A stretch of DNA of 38,370 nt from Deltaproteobacteria bacterium. GTDB taxonomy: Bacteria; Myxococcota; SpSt-1050. The notes under the pieces were generated by a model. It worked only from the letters and a program-made list of their open reading frames with translations, was not told the origin of the DNA and ran no database searches. The position numbers were made by a program, and so were the translations under genes. Each line of letters starts with the position of its first letter. The first letter of the stretch is position 1. The stretch covers positions 1 to 38,370 of the forward strand of contig JAOAFA010000081.1 of the NCBI GenBank assembly GCA_026416535.1. The letters run 5' to 3'. Below, piece by piece: positions 25,473 to 33,643 of this stretch.

Positions 25473-27452
25473 TTGTCTATCTTAAAAGGAAGAATTGCAT
25501 CCACTTTGACAAAGACCTATACCCAGTGTATAAGAACCTTGGATTATATGCTTGGAGAGACTGGCCTTAAATTTGTTGATTCGTCTGAAGAGGCAGATCA
25601 TATTGTTAAAGAGGTGTCCCGACTCCCTATTTTAGCCGTAGATATATTTTTCCGTTTGGAAAAAGGTATTAACAATCCCGCCTTGCTACTCGCTGGAAAT
25701 GAGAATATTCACTATGTCTTTGACCTGAGGAGATGTGGGCCAGATGCCTTACTATATATAATGGCTTCAAAAAATCTCAAAGTAATGTCCTCTGCATATG
25801 AAAAGATCCTCAATCTATATCAACATCAACTAATTCGAATAGAAAATATAACGGATATTCTCATCTTAGAGCAATTAATTACGAACAACTATTTCTTCCC
25901 ATCTGAGGTAAAGAGTCTTGACGACCTTTCAGAGAAATATTTGGGCTTTAAACCCGAGAAGGGAAGGCGGATTCTCATTGATAATCTTGATGGGGAGATC
26001 AGTCTTCATATCCTCGAGTATCTAAGGATAGAGCTACTTGTAATCTACAAGATCTTTTTAGAGCAGGTAAGAAAGATAAGATCTGCATCACTTGAGCGGA
26101 TCTCAAGAATAGAGAGCAATCTGATCAAGAGTCTCGCAAAGATTCAGCATATCGGGATTCATTTTAATATGGAGGATTTCTTAAAGCTTTTTTCATCTGC
26201 ACGAGATAAGAATCTATTGAAGGATGACTCTATTCTGGATGAAAAGGAGGTGGCCAGATTATTTAATTATGGAGTAAAAGAGAACACATATCTGGATAAT
26301 TTACTGAGAGACCTTGAGAAAAACTACAAAGATCCTGCTAGAGTGCTTTCTCAAAATGCCAATGAGCTCCTAAAGAGAGTAAGGCTACCAGAGTCAAGAA
26401 TACACAGTAGATTTGTTCAAATTTCGTCAGCATCTGGTAGAACCTCTTCTCAAACTCCAAATCTATTTGCTGTCCCTAAGGCAAGAATTTTTAGGGAATT
26501 TTTTTCAGCACCACATGGAAGGGTAATTATTACGTTAGATTTCTCGACATTCGAACTTGGTGTCCTTGCAGCACTTTCAAAGGACCCCCACTTTTTGAAG
26601 GCGTTTAGGGAAAAACTTGATCTTCATGCTTATGTGGCTCAGCTTATGTTTTCAAAAAAAGTTAGCAAAACAGAGAATCCAGAATTGCGGAGACGTGCAA
26701 AGGCTATTAACTTTGGGATTATCTATGGTATGACGGCACAGGGACTTGCAAAGAGATTAGAGATAAGTAAACCAGAGGCGATCAAGCTGATCAATACCTA
26801 CTATATGATATTTCCTTCTCTTAATTCATATATCCAAAATACGATTAGTTTGGCATTACAAAAGGGTGAGCTTAGAACACTGGCAGGTAGAAGGTGCCTT
26901 CTTTCGCCATTTGTAAATCTTACAGAGGAAAGAAAGAAGATCATAAATGAGATAAATACGAAGATTGTGAAGTCCTCGAACATGCTATACTCTATGCTTA
27001 TCCTAAAGTCCCTTGAAGAGGAGTATTTTAAAAAAGGGATAGGCTCTGAAGAGATGTATGTAAAGAGGTTACAAAATGTGATAAGTGAGGGAGAGCCTAT
27101 TAAAAGAATATTGCGAGATATGGATGTGAAAACTCATGAATTATATAGGTTTATTAGAAATATGCCTGTTCAGGGAACGGCAGCGGATATTATGAAGTTA
27201 TCAATAAGTATGATAGATGAGAGGCTTTCCGAAAAAGGTAAAAATGCATATATTATAAATATTGTTCACGATGAGATTTTGATTGAGGCTGGAGAAGAGG
27301 AGGCATGTGATATTGCATACATAGGCAGAGAGACTATGAAAGAGGCTTCAAGACAGATCCTTAAAGAGATAGAAATAGATGTAGAGGTCAACATAGGTCG
27401 TTTTTGGGGAGATTCGTCTCTTAATTATCTCATGGATAAGGCATTTAAATGA
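25473..27452 (+). CDS. family-A DNA polymerase lacking 5' nuclease, with apparently dead proofreading
   Basis: 659 residues from TTG 25473 with GAGAGGGA upstream. No 5'-3' nuclease domain is present. Residues about 20-190 are a 3'-5' exonuclease-like fold. The first metal motif is D57-I-F instead of D-x-E, and I find no convincing exo II Asn/Asp or exo III Tyr/Asp, so proofreading is probably lost. The polymerase part is intact: 'SASGRTSSQTPNLFAVP', motif A with Asp356 ('TLDFSTFEL'), O-helix 'RRAKAINFGIIYG' (Lys410) and motif C His-Asp600-Glu ('IVHDEILIE'). Between 'GRR' (472-474) and 'NMPVQGTAAD' (563) lies about 60 extra residues of charged helix compared with Pol I. The next gene overlaps by 4 bases and recA follows. 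Possibly a specialised repair or translesion polymerase; that role is inference. Confidence 0.88.
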   Translation: MSILKGRIASTLTKTYTQCIRTLDYMLGETGLKFVDSSEEADHIVKEVSRLPILAVDIFFRLEKGINNPALLLAGNENIHYVFDLRRCGPDALLYIMASKNLKVMSSAYEKILNLYQHQLIRIENITDILILEQLITNNYFFPSEVKSLDDLSEKYLGFKPEKGRRILIDNLDGEISLHILEYLRIELLVIYKIFLEQVRKIRSASLERISRIESNLIKSLAKIQHIGIHFNMEDFLKLFSSARDKNLLKDDSILDEKEVARLFNYGVKENTYLDNLLRDLEKNYKDPARVLSQNANELLKRVRLPESRIHSRFVQISSASGRTSSQTPNLFAVPKARIFREFFSAPHGRVIITLDFSTFELGVLAALSKDPHFLKAFREKLDLHAYVAQLMFSKKVSKTENPELRRRAKAINFGIIYGMTAQGLAKRLEISKPEAIKLINTYYMIFPSLNSYIQNTISLALQKGELRTLAGRRCLLSPFVNLTEERKKIINEINTKIVKSSNMLYSMLILKSLEEEYFKKGIGSEEMYVKRLQNVISEGEPIKRILRDMDVKTHELYRFIRNMPVQGTAADIMKLSISMIDERLSEKGKNAYIINIVHDEILIEAGEEEACDIAYIGRETMKEASRQILKEIEIDVEVNIGRFWGDSSLNYLMDKAFK

Positions 27453-28858
27453 GGGAGAGAGGAACTATTATTAAACAGCGCCAGAGGAACCTTCATACAG
27501 GGCTATTGTATCCAGATACATATGAGATCGCTATGTCTTCACTGGCATATCAAAGACTCTATTTTGTTCTTAACAACTCTGAAGGTGTCTTATGTGATAG
27601 ATTCGTCTCCAACAGGGCTAAAAGCCTCGAACATAACCTAAGCCCTCGTGATATTAAAATAGCGTTTATAACCGTCCCTTTTATACTTTGTACCAACTAC
27701 GTAGTTTCTTATTGTCATTATTACCTTAATCCACACAATGTGTTAACATGTATTGGTGGTGCTGGAGTTACAGCAAATCCGAAGCTTTTTAAACACTGTA
27801 AGGCTCTTGTTTTTACTGGGTCAATAGAAGAAAACTTAGAAAATATACGGACTATAATGAGAATGGTTAAAGCCGGTGTACCAAACGAGGTGATAATTAA
27901 CGAGATGCAACCGATCCTTGATGGAATCCCTATTGGATATGAGAATAATGGCATCCTTGAGTATGACCCCCCATGCTCTGTAATATATACAAGTGAAACA
28001 GAGTTTTCCAATATGCACTTGATAGAGATTAGCCGTGGCTGTCGTGGAAGCTGCAATTTTTGTATGTCAAGACATCTATATGGTCATTATAGAGAGTTTG
28101 AATATGAGCGTATAATAAAAGCAGTGGATGCTGCACCTGATTATATAAAATCCATTGGGTTAATAGGTGATGCCGTTCTTTCACATTCAAGAATCAAAGA
28201 TATTGTCAATTATATTTTACATAAGAAAAAGCGCCCTGCCTTTGCCTCTATTAGAATAGCTGATTTAAATGATGATAAGATTCCACTTATTTTGAAGTCG
28301 AGGGTAAAGACGATCACTATCGCTCCGGAGGTTGCCTCTGAGAAATTGATGAGGGTTACCAATAAGTATTACAACAGAGATGCCCTCTTTTGCTCATTAA
28401 AAGAGTTGATAAAAAACGGTGTAGTGAATATAAAGCTATATATGATGATAGGACTTCCGAATGAGAGTAGAGAAGATATCTTTGAATTGATTGATTTTAT
28501 CAGAGAGTTAAGAGGGCTGTTAGTAGATCTGTCCAAAAAGAAAGGGAGACTTGGGATATTAAAGGTTACTATAAACAATTTTGTCCCTTCACCGTTTACC
28601 CCCCTCTTTTCGTGTAACCCTGATGAGATAAAGAATCTTGAATATAAACAGACGTTAATAAAAACAGAACTCTCGAACTTATCGAATCTGACAATATCAA
28701 TGATGGATATATTTGATACCTTATATCAGACAGCACTTTTTAGGGCAAATGATGATTATGCGAGAAAAATCTTGCTTACTGACCTCAATCTTGTAAAGAG
28801 GGCATTTAGAGAAGATACGGATTTTGCAAACGATATTCTGAAGCTATGTTACAGCTAA
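27449..28858 (+). CDS. radical SAM protein with B12-binding-like N-terminus
   Basis: 469 residues. The N-terminal third (about 15-160) has the layout of a cobalamin-binding-like Rossmann region, 'GLLYPDTYEIAMSSLAYQRL', common to a class of B12-type radical SAM proteins, but no clear DxHxxG cobalamin motif is seen. The radical SAM core has the 4Fe-4S ligands Cys198, Cys202 and Cys205 in 'GCRGSCNFC', followed by 'GLIGDAVLSHS' and 'TIAPEVASEKLMRVTNK'. 'YMMIGLPNESREDI' is the usual TIM-barrel tail. The ATG overlaps the polymerase stop (ATGA), so both are made together. Known relatives include methylthiotransferase-like and uncharacterised enzymes. The substrate is unknown; a nucleic-acid role is suggested only by the neighbours. 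Confidence 0.85.
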   Translation: MRERGTIIKQRQRNLHTGLLYPDTYEIAMSSLAYQRLYFVLNNSEGVLCDRFVSNRAKSLEHNLSPRDIKIAFITVPFILCTNYVVSYCHYYLNPHNVLTCIGGAGVTANPKLFKHCKALVFTGSIEENLENIRTIMRMVKAGVPNEVIINEMQPILDGIPIGYENNGILEYDPPCSVIYTSETEFSNMHLIEISRGCRGSCNFCMSRHLYGHYREFEYERIIKAVDAAPDYIKSIGLIGDAVLSHSRIKDIVNYILHKKKRPAFASIRIADLNDDKIPLILKSRVKTITIAPEVASEKLMRVTNKYYNRDALFCSLKELIKNGVVNIKLYMMIGLPNESREDIFELIDFIRELRGLLVDLSKKKGRLGILKVTINNFVPSPFTPLFSCNPDEIKNLEYKQTLIKTELSNLSNLTISMMDIFDTLYQTALFRANDDYARKILLTDLNLVKRAFREDTDFANDILKLCYS

Positions 28859-28937: not shown

Positions 28938-29999
28938 ATGACAACAGATGAGAAGAGTAAGAAAACTGACAGAGAAAAAATTATTGATGTAGCCATCAGT
29001 ACTATCGAAAAGCAGTTTGGTAAAGGTTCTATAATGAGATTGAAAGACGCTGAGGCAATAAATAGGACTATTCCAGTGATATCTACCGGTTTATTGTCTC
29101 TTGATATCGCACTTGGTACTGGTGGCCTTCCAAAGGGAAGAGTCGTTGAGATATTTGGGCCTGAATCCTCCGGTAAGACGACGCTTGCCTTGCATCTTAT
29201 TGCTGAGTGTCAGAAAAACCAGGGAGTGGCTGTCTTTGTAGATGCTGAGCATGCCCTTGACATAAAATATGCTGCAAAGGTTGGGGTTAAGGTTGATGAT
29301 CTCTTGCTTTCTCAGCCCAATTATGGTGAAGAGGCTTTAGAGATAGTGGAGACTTTAGTCCGTTCGGGTGCAGTGGATCTGATTGTGGTCGATTCTGTGG
29401 CTGCACTTGTTCCAAAAGCGGAAATAGAGGGTGAGATGGGGGACTCACATATGGGGCTTCAAGCAAGACTTATGTCACAGGCTTTAAGAAAGTTAACCGC
29501 CGCAATCTCTCGGTCAAATACTCTTGTGGTATTTATAAATCAGATTCGAATGCAGCTTGGGGTAATGTATGGTAACCCTGAGACAACAACCGGGGGTAAG
29601 GCATTAAAATTTTATGCCTCTGTTAGACTTGATATTAGAAAGGTTGGAAGTATTAAGAACGGGGAAGATGTTGTCGGGGCTAGAACAAGAGGAAAGGTAG
29701 TTAAAAATAAACTTGCCCCTCCACACAGGGAGGTAGAGTTTGATATACTCTTCAATGAGGGAATATCCAAAGAGGGAGATATCCTAGATACGGCGACTAA
29801 TCTTGGAATAATAGAAAAGACAGGCACATGGTATTCATATAAGGGTGAAAGGCTTGGACAAGGAAGGGAAAATGCAAGACTCCTATTGAAAGAAAACAGG
29901 GAGCTACTAACAGATGTAGAAAATAAGATTAAGGAATTTTATGGATTTAACGCAAAGCCAACAGATACGAAACAGGAGAAATTAGAGAAGAAGAAGTAG
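28938..29999 (+). CDS. recA: recombinase RecA
   Basis: 353 residues, full length. Walker A is GPESSGKTT at 74-82. Further signatures are 'FVDAEHALD', '[10 protein letters not shown]', the loop 1 region '[21 protein letters not shown]', '[20 protein letters not shown]' (loop 2 and Walker B area) and the C-terminal '[18 protein letters not shown]'. RecA polymerises on single-stranded DNA for recombination and triggers the SOS response. AAAGGAGGG lies 8 bases before the ATG. The C-terminus is Lys/Glu-rich. Upstream are a repair-type polymerase and a radical SAM gene with a 79-base gap, so a separate promoter is likely. The next gene starts 6 bases after the stop. Confidence 0.98.
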
Positions 30000-30005
30000 T
30001 TATTT

Positions 30006-30944
30006 ATGCAGGAGACAGAGTTTCTACAGAGAGTTAAAGATACTGCTATAAATCTCTTGAGGAGAAAGGAGGTCTTCGAGGATATTGTCCAGGAGTTTGA
30101 TGGGGGCAAGATGGTTCGACCGAGAACTATATATATTCTATCCCTTTCCTTAAACGAGTTTGATTTTGAAAGACTTATACCACTTGCAACCTCTACTGAA
30201 CTTGTTCATCTTGCAAGCCTATTTCATGATGATGTTATAGACAATGGAATGATAAGGAGAAACAGACAAACTCTTAATGCAAGGTATGGAAATCTTATTA
30301 GTATACTTGCAGGTGATTATTTCTATTCAGTGGCCTCTCGGCTTGTCCTTGAAAACTACAACTCAGAGGTTGCAAAGATCTACTCGTATGCGGTTTCTTA
30401 TATGACTCTTATGGAGCTTAGACAGGCATCTTTAAGATGGAGTTATGAGATTAGTAAAGATGATTACTTTGACATTATAAGAGGAAAAACAGGGGCACTA
30501 TTTTCAGCTTCATTTGAGGCATTGGCTATTATCTTTAACAAAAGTGAGTTGGAGAGGCTATATCTAAGAGAGGCGGGTATGCTATTTGGAGAGATATTTC
30601 AGTTAACTGACGATTTATTGGATTTTGTTGGGAGAAGAACTGGAAAGAGTAAGCTTAAGGATCTTAGTGAGGGTGATATCACTTTGCCGGCCCTTTTGCT
30701 GATGGAAAAAAATGGGAGATTTAAAGAGCTTGTAATAGAGTACTTTCGTTCGAAAGGAGAAAAACAACATCTGATAAAAGAGATAGAAAGGGTGTTAAAT
30801 GAGGGGAGTTCACCTGAGATGGAGATAAACGAAATAATAGAGAAAGACAAAGAGGAGATTAAGGGTAGGCTTAGGAGATTAAAAGGATTTTCCATGGATA
30901 GCTTCTCTCCTTTTTTAAACTTCATTTCGGTAAGAGAGATGTGA
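30006..30944 (+). CDS. trans-polyprenyl diphosphate synthase
   Basis: 312 residues, the all-helical family of octaprenyl/heptaprenyl diphosphate synthases. The first Asp-rich motif is 'DDVIDNGMIRR' (Asp75, Asp76, Asp79); the second is 'TDDLLDF' (Asp202, Asp203, Asp206). 'GGKMVRPRTIYILSL' is the usual substrate-binding Lys/Arg region. It condenses isopentenyl diphosphate onto an allylic primer, to make quinone or glycan-lipid tails. The ATG at 30006 is 6 bases after the recA stop. Its end lies 2 bases before the next ATG (30947; an in-frame GTG at 30941 overlaps it). Chain length cannot be told from the sequence. Whether it serves the next genes or only shares the operon is unclear. Confidence 0.9.
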   Translation: MQETEFLQRVKDTAINLLRRKEVFEDIVQEFDGGKMVRPRTIYILSLSLNEFDFERLIPLATSTELVHLASLFHDDVIDNGMIRRNRQTLNARYGNLISILAGDYFYSVASRLVLENYNSEVAKIYSYAVSYMTLMELRQASLRWSYEISKDDYFDIIRGKTGALFSASFEALAIIFNKSELERLYLREAGMLFGEIFQLTDDLLDFVGRRTGKSKLKDLSEGDITLPALLLMEKNGRFKELVIEYFRSKGEKQHLIKEIERVLNEGSSPEMEINEIIEKDKEEIKGRLRRLKGFSMDSFSPFLNFISVREM

Positions 30945-30946
30945 CG

Positions 30947-31738
30947 ATGTTTAAGATAAAGATCGGAGAGTTTACTACTGAGATCAAGCTGTCTCCGAAA
31001 CAGCTCGAGAGGGATGTACAAAATGTTTTTTCTGGATTTATTTCTACTGAGAGGCCAGACACCTTTTTGGAGGCGAGATTAGTTAGTGACCTTAAGTACG
31101 ATGACTACAATGAACTGGCACCTGCGAAGAAGGTTGCTCCAGACATGTACAAAATAAAATGGTATTATTTTTCCGGCACCTTCTATTTAAAAAAGGGGTA
31201 TGCAAAGGCTATTGTCAATAGTAAGCCATATGTCCTCTCGTCGCTACTTAGAATTATATACGCAATAAAAGCCACTAATTCAGATGGTCTTTTCATACAT
31301 GCTGCGTCTTTTGTAAAGCAGGGAGATGCATATCTCTTTGTTGGCAAATCAGGTTCTGGGAAAAGTACTTTATTAAAAATGGCTATGAACTCGGATCAGT
31401 CTATTAGACCTCTTACCGACGAGATCTCGTATGTCGCCCTCGAGGGGGGAAGACCATTTGCCTATTCTACTCCATTTTGGGGGAATACTAAAATAAAGGG
31501 ACAATATATTAAGGCTCCGCTCAAAAAGTTGTATTTTATTAGACAGTCCAAAAGAGATTTTGTAAAAAAGATCTCGATTGATGGCGTTATGATAAACATG
31601 CTGGAAAATGTATTGTTTGCATCAACTGAGAGAGAAAGTTTAGACTCAGTACTTTCAACAATTAGAGGTATTGTAAAAAAGGTCGAAGGCTTTAATCTCT
31701 ACTTTACTAAGAGTGATAAATTCTTGGAGGTAATCTAA
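30947..31738 (+). CDS. HprK-like P-loop kinase of a peptide-maturation type cassette
   Basis: 263 residues from ATG 30947; a GTG at 30941 is possible. The N-terminal 115 residues are a divergent beta-rich region. The P-loop is 'VGKSGSGKST' (Gly133 to Thr141), preceded by 'GLFIHAASFVKQGDAYLFVG'. 'PLTDEISYVALEGGRPFAY' is a typical downstream Asp-Glu segment, followed by 'YSTPFWGN'. These are hallmarks of the HPr kinase-related family often found beside PqqD-type proteins and radical SAM enzymes. It probably phosphorylates a protein or peptide. No HPr protein is near. The stop abuts the TTG start of the radical SAM/SPASM gene. No PqqD-like recognition domain is visible in it. Confidence 0.82.
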   Translation: MFKIKIGEFTTEIKLSPKQLERDVQNVFSGFISTERPDTFLEARLVSDLKYDDYNELAPAKKVAPDMYKIKWYYFSGTFYLKKGYAKAIVNSKPYVLSSLLRIIYAIKATNSDGLFIHAASFVKQGDAYLFVGKSGSGKSTLLKMAMNSDQSIRPLTDEISYVALEGGRPFAYSTPFWGNTKIKGQYIKAPLKKLYFIRQSKRDFVKKISIDGVMINMLENVLFASTERESLDSVLSTIRGIVKKVEGFNLYFTKSDKFLEVI

Positions 31739-32803
31739 TTGTCTTCAGATATTTCTGCATTTGAATACTTAAGACAAAAGGCTAGAAAGACAGGTTCTTT
31801 GCTATCTATTCATCTTGATATTACATATAGATGTCCACTGAAATGTATCCACTGCTATATCGACCATAGGGAAAACAGAGAGTTGTCTATTACTGAGATT
31901 ACGAAAGTATTAAAGGATGCCCGTAGGCTTAATGCTGTATTTATTACATATTCCGGAGGTGAGGTTTTTGTAAGGGAGGATTTCGAAGATATATTGAAGA
32001 TCTCGTATAAACTCAATTATGTCATAAAGATCATCACCTCTGGCTATCTTATAAGTGATTATGAAGTAGAGATGCTAAAAAGGTATAACGTAACAAGTGT
32101 AGGAGTATCCTTATATGCAGTTGATCCTGAGATTCATGATAGGATAACTGGAGTAAGAGGCTCATTTAATAGGACCATACGAGCTATTGAACTCCTAAAG
32201 AATGCAAAAATAAACGTTGTTGTAAAGACTTCGATAATGAGACCAAATTATAAAGATTACCTAAATCTGTTAAGGTGGATAAAATCTCAAGGCAGAAGGG
32301 TGTCTGCCCAGTATGATATGGTTATCACCCCAACAAAGTGTAACAGGTCAGGTGTAAGGGACCTAAATATCCCCTATAAGAAAAAGAGAAGTCTTTTGTC
32401 AGAGATAAAGAGGATTGAGGCGAAGAGGGAAACTAAGATAGAAGATATGGATGACTATAACCAACAGTATAGAGTTAGTGAGGATTCAATAACGTGTTAT
32501 GCAGGGATTACAGGGATTTATATAGCCCCTAATGGGAAGGTCTTTCCTTGTGTGGAGTGGGATGAACTCTTAGGAGATCTTAGGAAAGAGAGTCTCATTG
32601 AGATATGGAAAAACTCTGAAAGGTTAATGCAGATTAGGAATCTCAGAATCAAGGATTATAAAAAGTGTGTTAGTTGTAAGTATTTGAGTGCATGCTCTAT
32701 ATGTCCGGGTCTCAACTTGAGAGATAAAAAAGATATATTTGAGCCATCAGATCTTGCCTGTCAGAGGGCGAGGATGTATTATGAACAAGAGAAAACGAGC
32801 TGA
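31739..32803 (+). CDS. radical SAM/SPASM peptide-modifying enzyme
   Basis: 354 residues from TTG 31739, supported by GGAGG at 31726-31730, 8 bases upstream. The 4Fe-4S ligands are Cys32, Cys36 and Cys39 in 'CPLKCIHC'. 'YSGGEVFVREDFEDI' is the SAM-binding Gly-rich segment. From about residue 253 a SPASM domain supplies Cys for auxiliary clusters ('CYAGITGIYIAPNGKVFPCVEW' region, then 'CVSCKYLSACSICPG'). SPASM enzymes mature ribosomal peptides or proteins, for example anaerobic sulfatase-maturating and PqqE types. The downstream start overlaps by 23 bases. There is no N-terminal RRE (PqqD-like) domain and no precursor gene nearby, so the substrate is unknown. Confidence 0.9.
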   Translation: MSSDISAFEYLRQKARKTGSLLSIHLDITYRCPLKCIHCYIDHRENRELSITEITKVLKDARRLNAVFITYSGGEVFVREDFEDILKISYKLNYVIKIITSGYLISDYEVEMLKRYNVTSVGVSLYAVDPEIHDRITGVRGSFNRTIRAIELLKNAKINVVVKTSIMRPNYKDYLNLLRWIKSQGRRVSAQYDMVITPTKCNRSGVRDLNIPYKKKRSLLSEIKRIEAKRETKIEDMDDYNQQYRVSEDSITCYAGITGIYIAPNGKVFPCVEWDELLGDLRKESLIEIWKNSERLMQIRNLRIKDYKKCVSCKYLSACSICPGLNLRDKKDIFEPSDLACQRARMYYEQEKTS

Positions 32804-33269
32804 GACGTCGATCAAGACAATAAAAGATGCCATTGAGAGATATGGTAGATTTAAATTTAGTGTAAAGGGCTCATCAATGTTCCCATTCATTATAGATGGG
32901 GATGAGGTTATTATTGAGAGAGTATTACCGGAGGACATAAGAGTAGGAGATATCATAATGTATATAAGGGATACTCAAATGATTGTTCATAGAATTACAA
33001 ATATATATACAACTAGTACGGGAAGGAGACTATTTATTCTTAGGGGGGATAATTTACCTTATGAGGATAAACCTGTATGGGAAGAGGAAATAGGGGGCAA
33101 GGCAACAAAAGTAATAAGGGGTGATAAGGAGTTTACAGCAGCCTCTTTTCACCCAATTGTTATATCAGCTGTCAGATATGTCCTAAACAAAGGTAGAGTT
33201 CTCAAACGTATTTTAGGTTTGAAAATAACGCAAAATGACATTTTAAATATCTTAAGGAGGAAGAGATGA
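32781..33269 (+). CDS. S26-type Ser/His signal peptidase-like protein
   Basis: 162 residues from ATG 32781, preferred for GAGG at 32770-32773 seven bases upstream; a longer frame start lies further upstream without a site. The catalytic Ser is Ser32 in 'KGSSMFP'. The second motif is 'VGDIIMYIRDTQMIVHR', with His70 where bacterial type I peptidases have Lys, like the SipW/Sec11 (S26B) group. 'LRGDNLPYED' is the third, Asp-containing motif. No N-terminal membrane segment is seen, so it is not an ordinary leader peptidase. It overlaps the radical SAM gene by 23 bases and the next gene by 4. In this context it may process a modified peptide. Confidence 0.82.
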   Translation: MNKRKRAETSIKTIKDAIERYGRFKFSVKGSSMFPFIIDGDEVIIERVLPEDIRVGDIIMYIRDTQMIVHRITNIYTTSTGRRLFILRGDNLPYEDKPVWEEEIGGKATKVIRGDKEFTAASFHPIVISAVRYVLNKGRVLKRILGLKITQNDILNILRRKR

Positions 33270-33643
33270 GTATAGGTAAATTCGTAACGGCTATAAATTG
33301 TATGGATGGGCGGACCCAGGAGCCTTTAATTAAATGGGCAAAGGATAGGTTTGGTGCTGACTATGTAGACATGATAAATGAACCGGGTCCTGACCTCATT
33401 CTCATTAGTGAGGATAAAAACTTCTTTGACTACATTATGAAAAAGATCAGAATCTCTACTGAAAAACATGGTTCTAAAAGTCTCATTATTGCTGCGCACC
33501 ATGATTGTGCTGGTAATCCCGTAGGTCGGGAAAGACATATTGAATTTGTGAATAGGAGTATAGAAATTGCTAGGAAACATCTGCCGGGCATAGAGGTTGT
33601 AGGAGTATACATCAACGAAAGGTGGGAAGTTGAACCCTTGTAA
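33266..33643 (+). CDS. small beta-carbonic-anhydrase-like protein
   Basis: 125 residues. The beta-carbonic-anhydrase zinc set appears complete but compressed: Cys12 with Asp14 and Arg16 in 'INCMDGR', and His78 with Cys81 in 'AAHHDCAGNP'. Full beta-CAs have about 190-220 residues, so this short form may bind zinc without normal catalysis, or hydrate CO2 as a dimer. The ATG overlaps the peptidase stop (ATGA). It closes the operon. The following hairpin and T-run may terminate it. Its place beside a peptide-maturation cassette is unexplained. Confidence 0.8.
   Translation: MSIGKFVTAINCMDGRTQEPLIKWAKDRFGADYVDMINEPGPDLILISEDKNFFDYIMKKIRISTEKHGSKSLIIAAHHDCAGNPVGRERHIEFVNRSIEIARKHLPGIEVVGVYINERWEVEPL

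Follow-up and report, generated by a model that had tools for sequence, protein, structure and literature searches.

Linear polyphosphorylated peptides (LPPs), encoded by the lppA-K-B-S-D-N cluster of Paenibacillus alginolyticus (Bacillota), are among the closest described counterparts of the locus analyzed here (Popov et al. 2026, PMC13381572). In the LPP model, an RRE binds the YxxP-containing leader (full motif YxxPxVLxHQxIxFETxxS), the kinase phosphorylates Ser, and an SpI-like peptidase, LppS (catalytic triad S29/H68/D93), removes the leader with the help of the RRE (PMC13381572). Ser3 of the LPP core is polyphosphorylated, the cluster includes an NTP transferase and an MsbA-like exporter, and a radical SAM enzyme is not mentioned in the text of the LPP paper (PMC13381572).

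The window, that is, the whole stretch of DNA that was analyzed, comprises 38,370 nucleotides of contig JAOAFA010000081.1 from a draft assembly of a Myxococcota bacterium (134 contigs, denoted G000; C10 and C62 below are other contigs of the same genome). We compared it with the genome of a congener, G001, and with that of a member of a different family of the same order, G002; the records carrying the genes of interest were judged to be DYEF01000046.1 (G001) and JACRCP010000045.1 (G002). The locus consists of the following genes:

25473-27452, polA
27449-28858, radical SAM protein upstream of recA
28938..29999, + strand, recA, which belongs to the run upstream of PPS and is conserved in G001
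30006..30944, + strand, long-chain polyprenyl diphosphate synthase (PPS; Pfam polyprenyl_synt 3.5e-47)
30941..31738, + strand, HprK-like (LppK-like) kinase (PEPCK/HprK fold by AF2 and Foldseek)
31739..32803, + strand, SPASM radical SAM enzyme (TTG start; Pfam Radical_SAM 2.4e-24, SPASM 2.9e-11)
32781..33269, + strand, soluble S26 (SpI/SipW/SEC11-type) peptidase (ATG start; NCBIfam sigpep_I_arch)
33266..33643, + strand, small beta-carbonic anhydrase-like protein (Pfam Pro_CA_2, PF20393, 1.1e-46)

The last five ORFs have the coordinates given in a first-pass annotation of this DNA, which had described them as coupled by overlaps or near-zero gaps: PPS and kinase share 4 nt, the kinase is separated from the SPASM gene by 0 nt, SPASM and S26 share 23 nt, and S26 and carbonic anhydrase share 4 nt. 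The order of all eight genes, from polA through recA to the carbonic anhydrase, is also present in G001. In Pfam, the polA-like ORF (659 aa, TTG start) hit the polymerase domain alone; a 5' nuclease domain was not matched. The G001 record (locus L077) derives from a MAG labeled Bdellovibrio sp.; the matching genome falls in the genus of the window, in a phylum that includes a Myxococcota-labeled record, so the Bdellovibrio name is probably wrong.

This tight coupling and its conservation in G001 would fit a single five-gene unit, as the first-pass annotation had it, with the carbonic anhydrase and the prenyl synthase acting on the same substrate, for example, by prenylation. The run, however, also includes polA and recA, and in G002 the kinase, SPASM, and S26 genes (hereafter, the triad) stand by themselves, with no adjoining PPS, carbonic anhydrase, or recA. 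The long-chain prenyl synthase of G002 is encoded on another contig, no PF20393 protein was found in that genome, and in a further genome with a related cassette (G005), the PF20393 gene and the cassette lie on separate contigs. Because neither gene adjoins the triad in G002, and a scan of the other cassette loci found neither, PPS and the carbonic anhydrase are probably neighbors rather than parts of the system, PPS being a housekeeping gene, and the five-gene reading is very improbable. Only the kinase, the SPASM enzyme, and the S26 peptidase form a system.

All catalytic motifs of these three enzymes are intact. The single-chain AF2 model of the kinase (pLDDT 94) retrieved PEPCK (6.9e-9) and HPr kinase (3.4e-4) in Foldseek, two targets that share one fold; in Pfam, the protein showed P-loop matches only. 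His120, the Walker A motif GKSGSGKST (135-143), and Asp160 are invariant in 17 homologs, and a TPFWG motif is located at 177-181. The SPASM enzyme combines the CX3CX2C motif (Cys 32/36/39) with seven conserved auxiliary-cluster cysteines (253, 271, 310, 313, 319, 322, and 341), the hallmarks of SPASM peptide maturases; its best solved relatives are SkfB (1.1e-28) and PqqE (5.3e-25). In a SPASM tree built without partial rows, the window copy groups with those of G001 and G002 (support 100/99), and the grouping of the whole cassette set is weak (67/85). The S26 peptidase scored 58.8 bits against the sigpep_I_arch model (cutoff 51.85) and 2.5e-10 against SEC11A. Its Ser32, His70, and Asp90 are invariant in 10 homologs; an N-terminal helix is present, and no membrane helix was found (maximum 19-residue hydropathy 1.05). 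By analogy with LppS, this protein is a probable leader peptidase. The first reading of the sequence had thus named the proteins correctly: a P-loop kinase of the HprK-related type, with a fold now backed by AF2 and Foldseek; a SPASM radical SAM enzyme, with Pfam matches to both domains; a SipW/Sec11-like peptidase with Ser32 and His70 and without a membrane helix, in which Asp90 proved invariant too; and a small carbonic anhydrase-like protein, with C12xDxR and H78xxC81 motifs and a strong PF20393 match.

The kinase gene adjoins the SPASM and S26 genes in G001 and G002 too, and kinase and SPASM genes share cassettes in several other phyla. A profile made from a 3-sequence kinase alignment identified 19 loci among 84,980 species genomes; the locus search with a single kinase sequence as query returned nothing. 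In Acidobacteriota, TA06, Elusimicrobiota, and one Myxococcota locus (G026), the genes follow the order kinase, PqqD-type RRE, SPASM, precursor, S26, some cassettes being without S26 or SPASM locally. The precursors in these cassettes consist of 48-56 aa and have K-K-P-Y-x-K-P-x-x-x-S-E... leaders and ACxK...C cores in common. Those from Acidobacteriota retain ...IYET..., which resembles the cleavage region of LPP precursors, and frequently end in Ser. In paeninodin-type lasso peptides, the Ser at the end is the kinase site, and by analogy, the C-terminal Ser of the Acidobacterial precursors is a possible kinase site.

The composition of the cassettes varies. In two Myxococcota loci, L152 (6755-7720) and L153 (3906-4847), from G129 and G189, the S26-type peptidase carries a GNAT acetyltransferase domain at its C terminus (Pfam 1.1e-12 and 6.5e-11, respectively), a fusion which suggests that the released peptide could be acetylated. 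Five loci of family f9 and its relatives (L148, L152, L154, L155, and L162) have the order RRE, giant protein (see below), (precursor), kinase, S26, with no SPASM match to the profile used; a SPASM-less version may therefore be common in large-genome Myxococcota. Divergent radical SAM proteins occupy the expected position of the SPASM gene in L044, L149, L160, and L161, the one in L149 scoring below the Pfam SPASM cutoff. Given that SPASM is absent by profile or divergent in many Myxococcota versions, the radical SAM step is not shared by all versions of the system. Two Armatimonadota loci (L088 and L092) show yet another layout of the cassette: they encode a kinase and an RRE, the gene for an S26-type protein lies upstream, and SPASM was not matched.

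The window lacks an RRE, and none of the small ORFs beside the run within it is convincing as a precursor, consistent with the first-pass statement that no PqqD domain or precursor lies nearby. Both are nevertheless encoded elsewhere in G000:

C10, 13420-13617, PqqD-type RRE, the sole PF05402 match in the genome
C62, 5862-6011, precursor of about 49 aa containing ...KRRYIRPTIKFRSSKRQMIVAVSCQKIWGESEYCN..., with an ortholog on contig C88 of G001

Exactly one PF05402 (PqqD) protein is encoded in each of G000, G001, and G002, and in all three it is unlinked to the triad. The best NCBIfam model for the RREs of these genomes is the lasso-type RRE, and the matches in PDB include the lasso/PqqD-family RREs 9x90, 5v1u, and 9x8z. 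In G001 and G002, the RRE gene is divergent from a gene for an orthologous 2,432/2,522-aa lipoprotein with Ig-like and FG-GAP domains. This giant family (1,600-2,800 aa) is encoded within 10 kb of the RRE and/or the kinase in each of the 11 genomes inspected among the 12 with the best scores, and the consensus order in Myxococcota runs RRE, giant, precursor, kinase, (SPASM), S26. No giant lipoprotein was detected in G000; since this is a draft in 134 contigs, the loss could be an assembly gap, though the RRE region lies inside a contig. Upstream of the C10 RRE, where G001 and G002 have the giant, G000 encodes a 782-aa Cys-rich lipoprotein (L105, 6794-9142). This protein and a 33-aa ORF beside the same RRE were considered as precursors and dismissed because they contain no leader motif.

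In G001 and G002, a precursor ORF lies immediately 3' of the giant gene that neighbors the RRE, as predicted from other Myxococcota cassettes. Neither the giant-linked precursor of G001 nor a 12-row precursor profile matched anything in G000, and there are no NCBIfam models for these precursors. Applied genome-wide to G001, the same profile weakly recovered a second peptide, on C88 (E 0.035), encoded between genes for a 1,009-aa exported PQQ_2-propeller protein and a 194-aa exported protein on one side and rsmD-coaD on the other. The G000 precursor was then located by synteny, via the rsmD locus: the C62 and C88 peptides occupy the same spot before rsmD-coaD. In both genomes, genes for an exported PQQ_2-propeller protein and an exported protein of about 195 aa with no known family precede this second precursor (L177, 2-1216, and L176, 1474-5101). 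The two peptides are 45% identical, with pN 0.34 vs pS 0.88. When a profile was trained without them, they were the top untrained small ORFs among 1,256 ORFs in 152 kb (E values 0.002 and 0.015). The final genome-wide search of G000 yielded no candidate beyond the C62 peptide, with a profile whose training included the C62 and C88 peptides and which is therefore circular for those two.

The leader of the G000 precursor contains ...KRRYIRP... and its core ...VAVSCQKIWGESEYC...; two positions, the Pro of [Y/W]xxP and a core Cys, never vary across the precursors from Acidobacteriota to G000. This leader has no FET-type cleavage motif like that of the LPP and Acidobacterial precursors, and the peptide has neither the ...IYET... 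region nor a C-terminal Ser. The search for co-occurring small genes uncovered [Y/W]xxP precursor ORFs in the cassettes and in most of the giant loci inspected. With two precursors and one enzyme set in G001, the enzymes would act in trans.

The recurrence of the giants near the RRE and/or kinase, together with the exported propeller protein upstream of the C62/C88 precursor, could also mean that the triad acts directly on a large protein, either the Ig-like/FG-GAP giant or the propeller, and that the small ORFs are incidental. This is unlikely. The canonical cassettes encode a short precursor and no giant, and the [Y/W]xxP leader motif belongs to short peptides: in 14 of the 17 giant loci inspected, the gap between giant and kinase contains an ORF of 40-60 aa whose leader has the basic-[Y/W]xxP pattern. 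The giants themselves begin with signal peptides and lipoboxes instead of leaders, and G000 keeps the triad without a detectable giant. We therefore rejected direct modification of the giant lipoprotein as the main reading, given the leader-bearing peptides in the giant-kinase gap and the lack of a detected giant in G000. Of the large protein substrate envisaged in the first-pass annotation, what is left is a linked extracellular protein, the leader-bearing substrate being a peptide of about 50 aa.

The reading that we favor, with a probability of roughly 0.8, is that the triad supplies the enzymes of a RiPP pathway whose genes are dispersed over three sites in the genome. The discrete PqqD-type RRE from C10 would bind the K/R-[Y/W]xxP leader of the C62 precursor and present the precursor to the window enzymes. 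The SPASM enzyme would probably modify the core at or near Cys, perhaps by forming a thioether crosslink as the sactisynthase SkfB does; the HprK-like kinase would probably phosphorylate a Ser; and the soluble Ser/His/Asp S26 peptidase would then cut off the leader, aided by the RRE as LppS is. A leader-bearing precursor, a recognition element, modifying enzymes, and a leader peptidase, the parts by which a RiPP system is recognized, are all encoded in this one genome. Because the RRE, the precursor, and the enzymes are encoded on three separate contigs of G000, the case for their joint action rests on homology and on each being the sole copy found. The data establish the genes, their folds and catalytic residues, their linkage in other taxa, and the presence and conservation of RRE and precursor; concerted action in this organism, the sequence of steps, the chemistry, and any connection with the large extracellular proteins next to precursors are inferences. 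The earlier proposal of a RiPP-like maturation set with a distant substrate accordingly stands, with both missing parts located on other contigs; the absence of a PqqD domain and a precursor that it noted is confined to the locus.

The dispersal over three contigs and the loss from G000 of the giant-linked precursor of G001 are also what one would expect of a decayed or re-purposed remnant, in which enzymes retained in a housekeeping operon now act on some other substrate and have nothing to do with the C62 and C10 genes. We consider this still less likely than direct action on a large protein: every catalytic motif of the window enzymes is intact, conservation of the triad extends to G001 (54-70% identity) and G002, and each of G000, G001, and G002 retains one RRE and at least one precursor.

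If the split pathway is real, its distribution over several loci means that genome mining built on gene clusters would overlook the substrate. Tentatively, the arrangement could be a new class of RiPP: a single set of kinase, radical SAM enzyme, SpI peptidase, and RRE, acting in trans, would mature scattered precursors, each encoded beside a large exported protein. Under that tentative reading, and with no greater confidence for the two ideas taken together, the crosslinked, phosphorylated peptide might work with, or be displayed on, an Ig-like or beta-propeller surface protein; an LPP-like pathway would then be tied to envelope biology in Myxococcota. The recurrent pairing of precursor and RRE with the Ig-like/FG-GAP lipoprotein provides a lead to the biological role, and with precursors defined for G000 and two relatives, the chemistry is directly testable.

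Compared with paeninodin-type lasso peptides, the system shares an HprK-like kinase and a discrete RRE reading a [Y/W]xxP leader; in contrast, no macrolactam cyclase or B2 protease was seen at the window locus or in the cassettes read, and the cassettes have an S26-type leader protease and a SPASM enzyme. With SkfB/PqqE-type SPASM maturases, it has in common the SPASM enzyme, RRE assistance, and a Cys-containing peptide substrate, but the partner set of kinase and S26 peptidase differs. The bond that defines sactipeptides joins a Cys sulfur to an alpha-carbon, and the core here does contain Cys residues. The window SPASM enzyme scored far below the cutoff for all named NCBIfam SPASM maturase models, and the matches of the kinase and SPASM proteins to the SynChlorMet and HprK-related kinase A families were weak (ScmC 30 vs cutoff 125, ScmE 112 vs 400, HprK_rel_A 28 vs 200).

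The core of the system matches that of LPP, and the pathway would work in a similar way. Both systems have an HprK-like kinase (PEPCK/HprK fold in the AF2 model of the window protein), an SpI/SipW-like leader peptidase with Ser/His/Asp (S32/H70/D90 in the window S26 protein, where the activity is predicted), and a discrete RRE with a short precursor carrying a YxxP leader. An NTP-transferase-like protein is encoded in the TA06 and Acidiferrales loci, and the Acidobacterial ...YxKPxVxSExIYET... is close to the LPP YxxPxVLxHQxIxFET. The G000 precursor has YxxP but not the remainder of the LPP motif, including FET, so that the Acidobacterial precursors are nearer to LPP. The system differs from LPP in that a SPASM radical SAM enzyme is added, the cores carry Cys, Ser3 of the LPP core is not conserved, the hosts lie outside Bacillota, and in the taxonomic order to which the window belongs, enzymes, RRE, and precursor are unlinked, the G000 RRE lying outside the cluster. 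No NTP transferase or MsbA-like exporter (LppN/LppD) was found among the window genes scanned. We did not assign the window set to LPP, considering the unclustered RRE, the incomplete leader motif, the lack of an NTP transferase and exporter at the locus, and the added radical SAM enzyme. The first-pass label "undescribed" needs qualification accordingly: the core matches LPP, and the LPP paper covers neither the version with a radical SAM enzyme nor these phyla nor the split layout (PMC13381572). The literature searched, with most subscription journals outside its range, contained no description of the combination of kinase, radical SAM enzyme, and SpI peptidase. The RiPP core of HprK-like kinase, SpI leader peptidase, and RRE is extended beyond Bacillota, with a radical SAM enzyme added to it.
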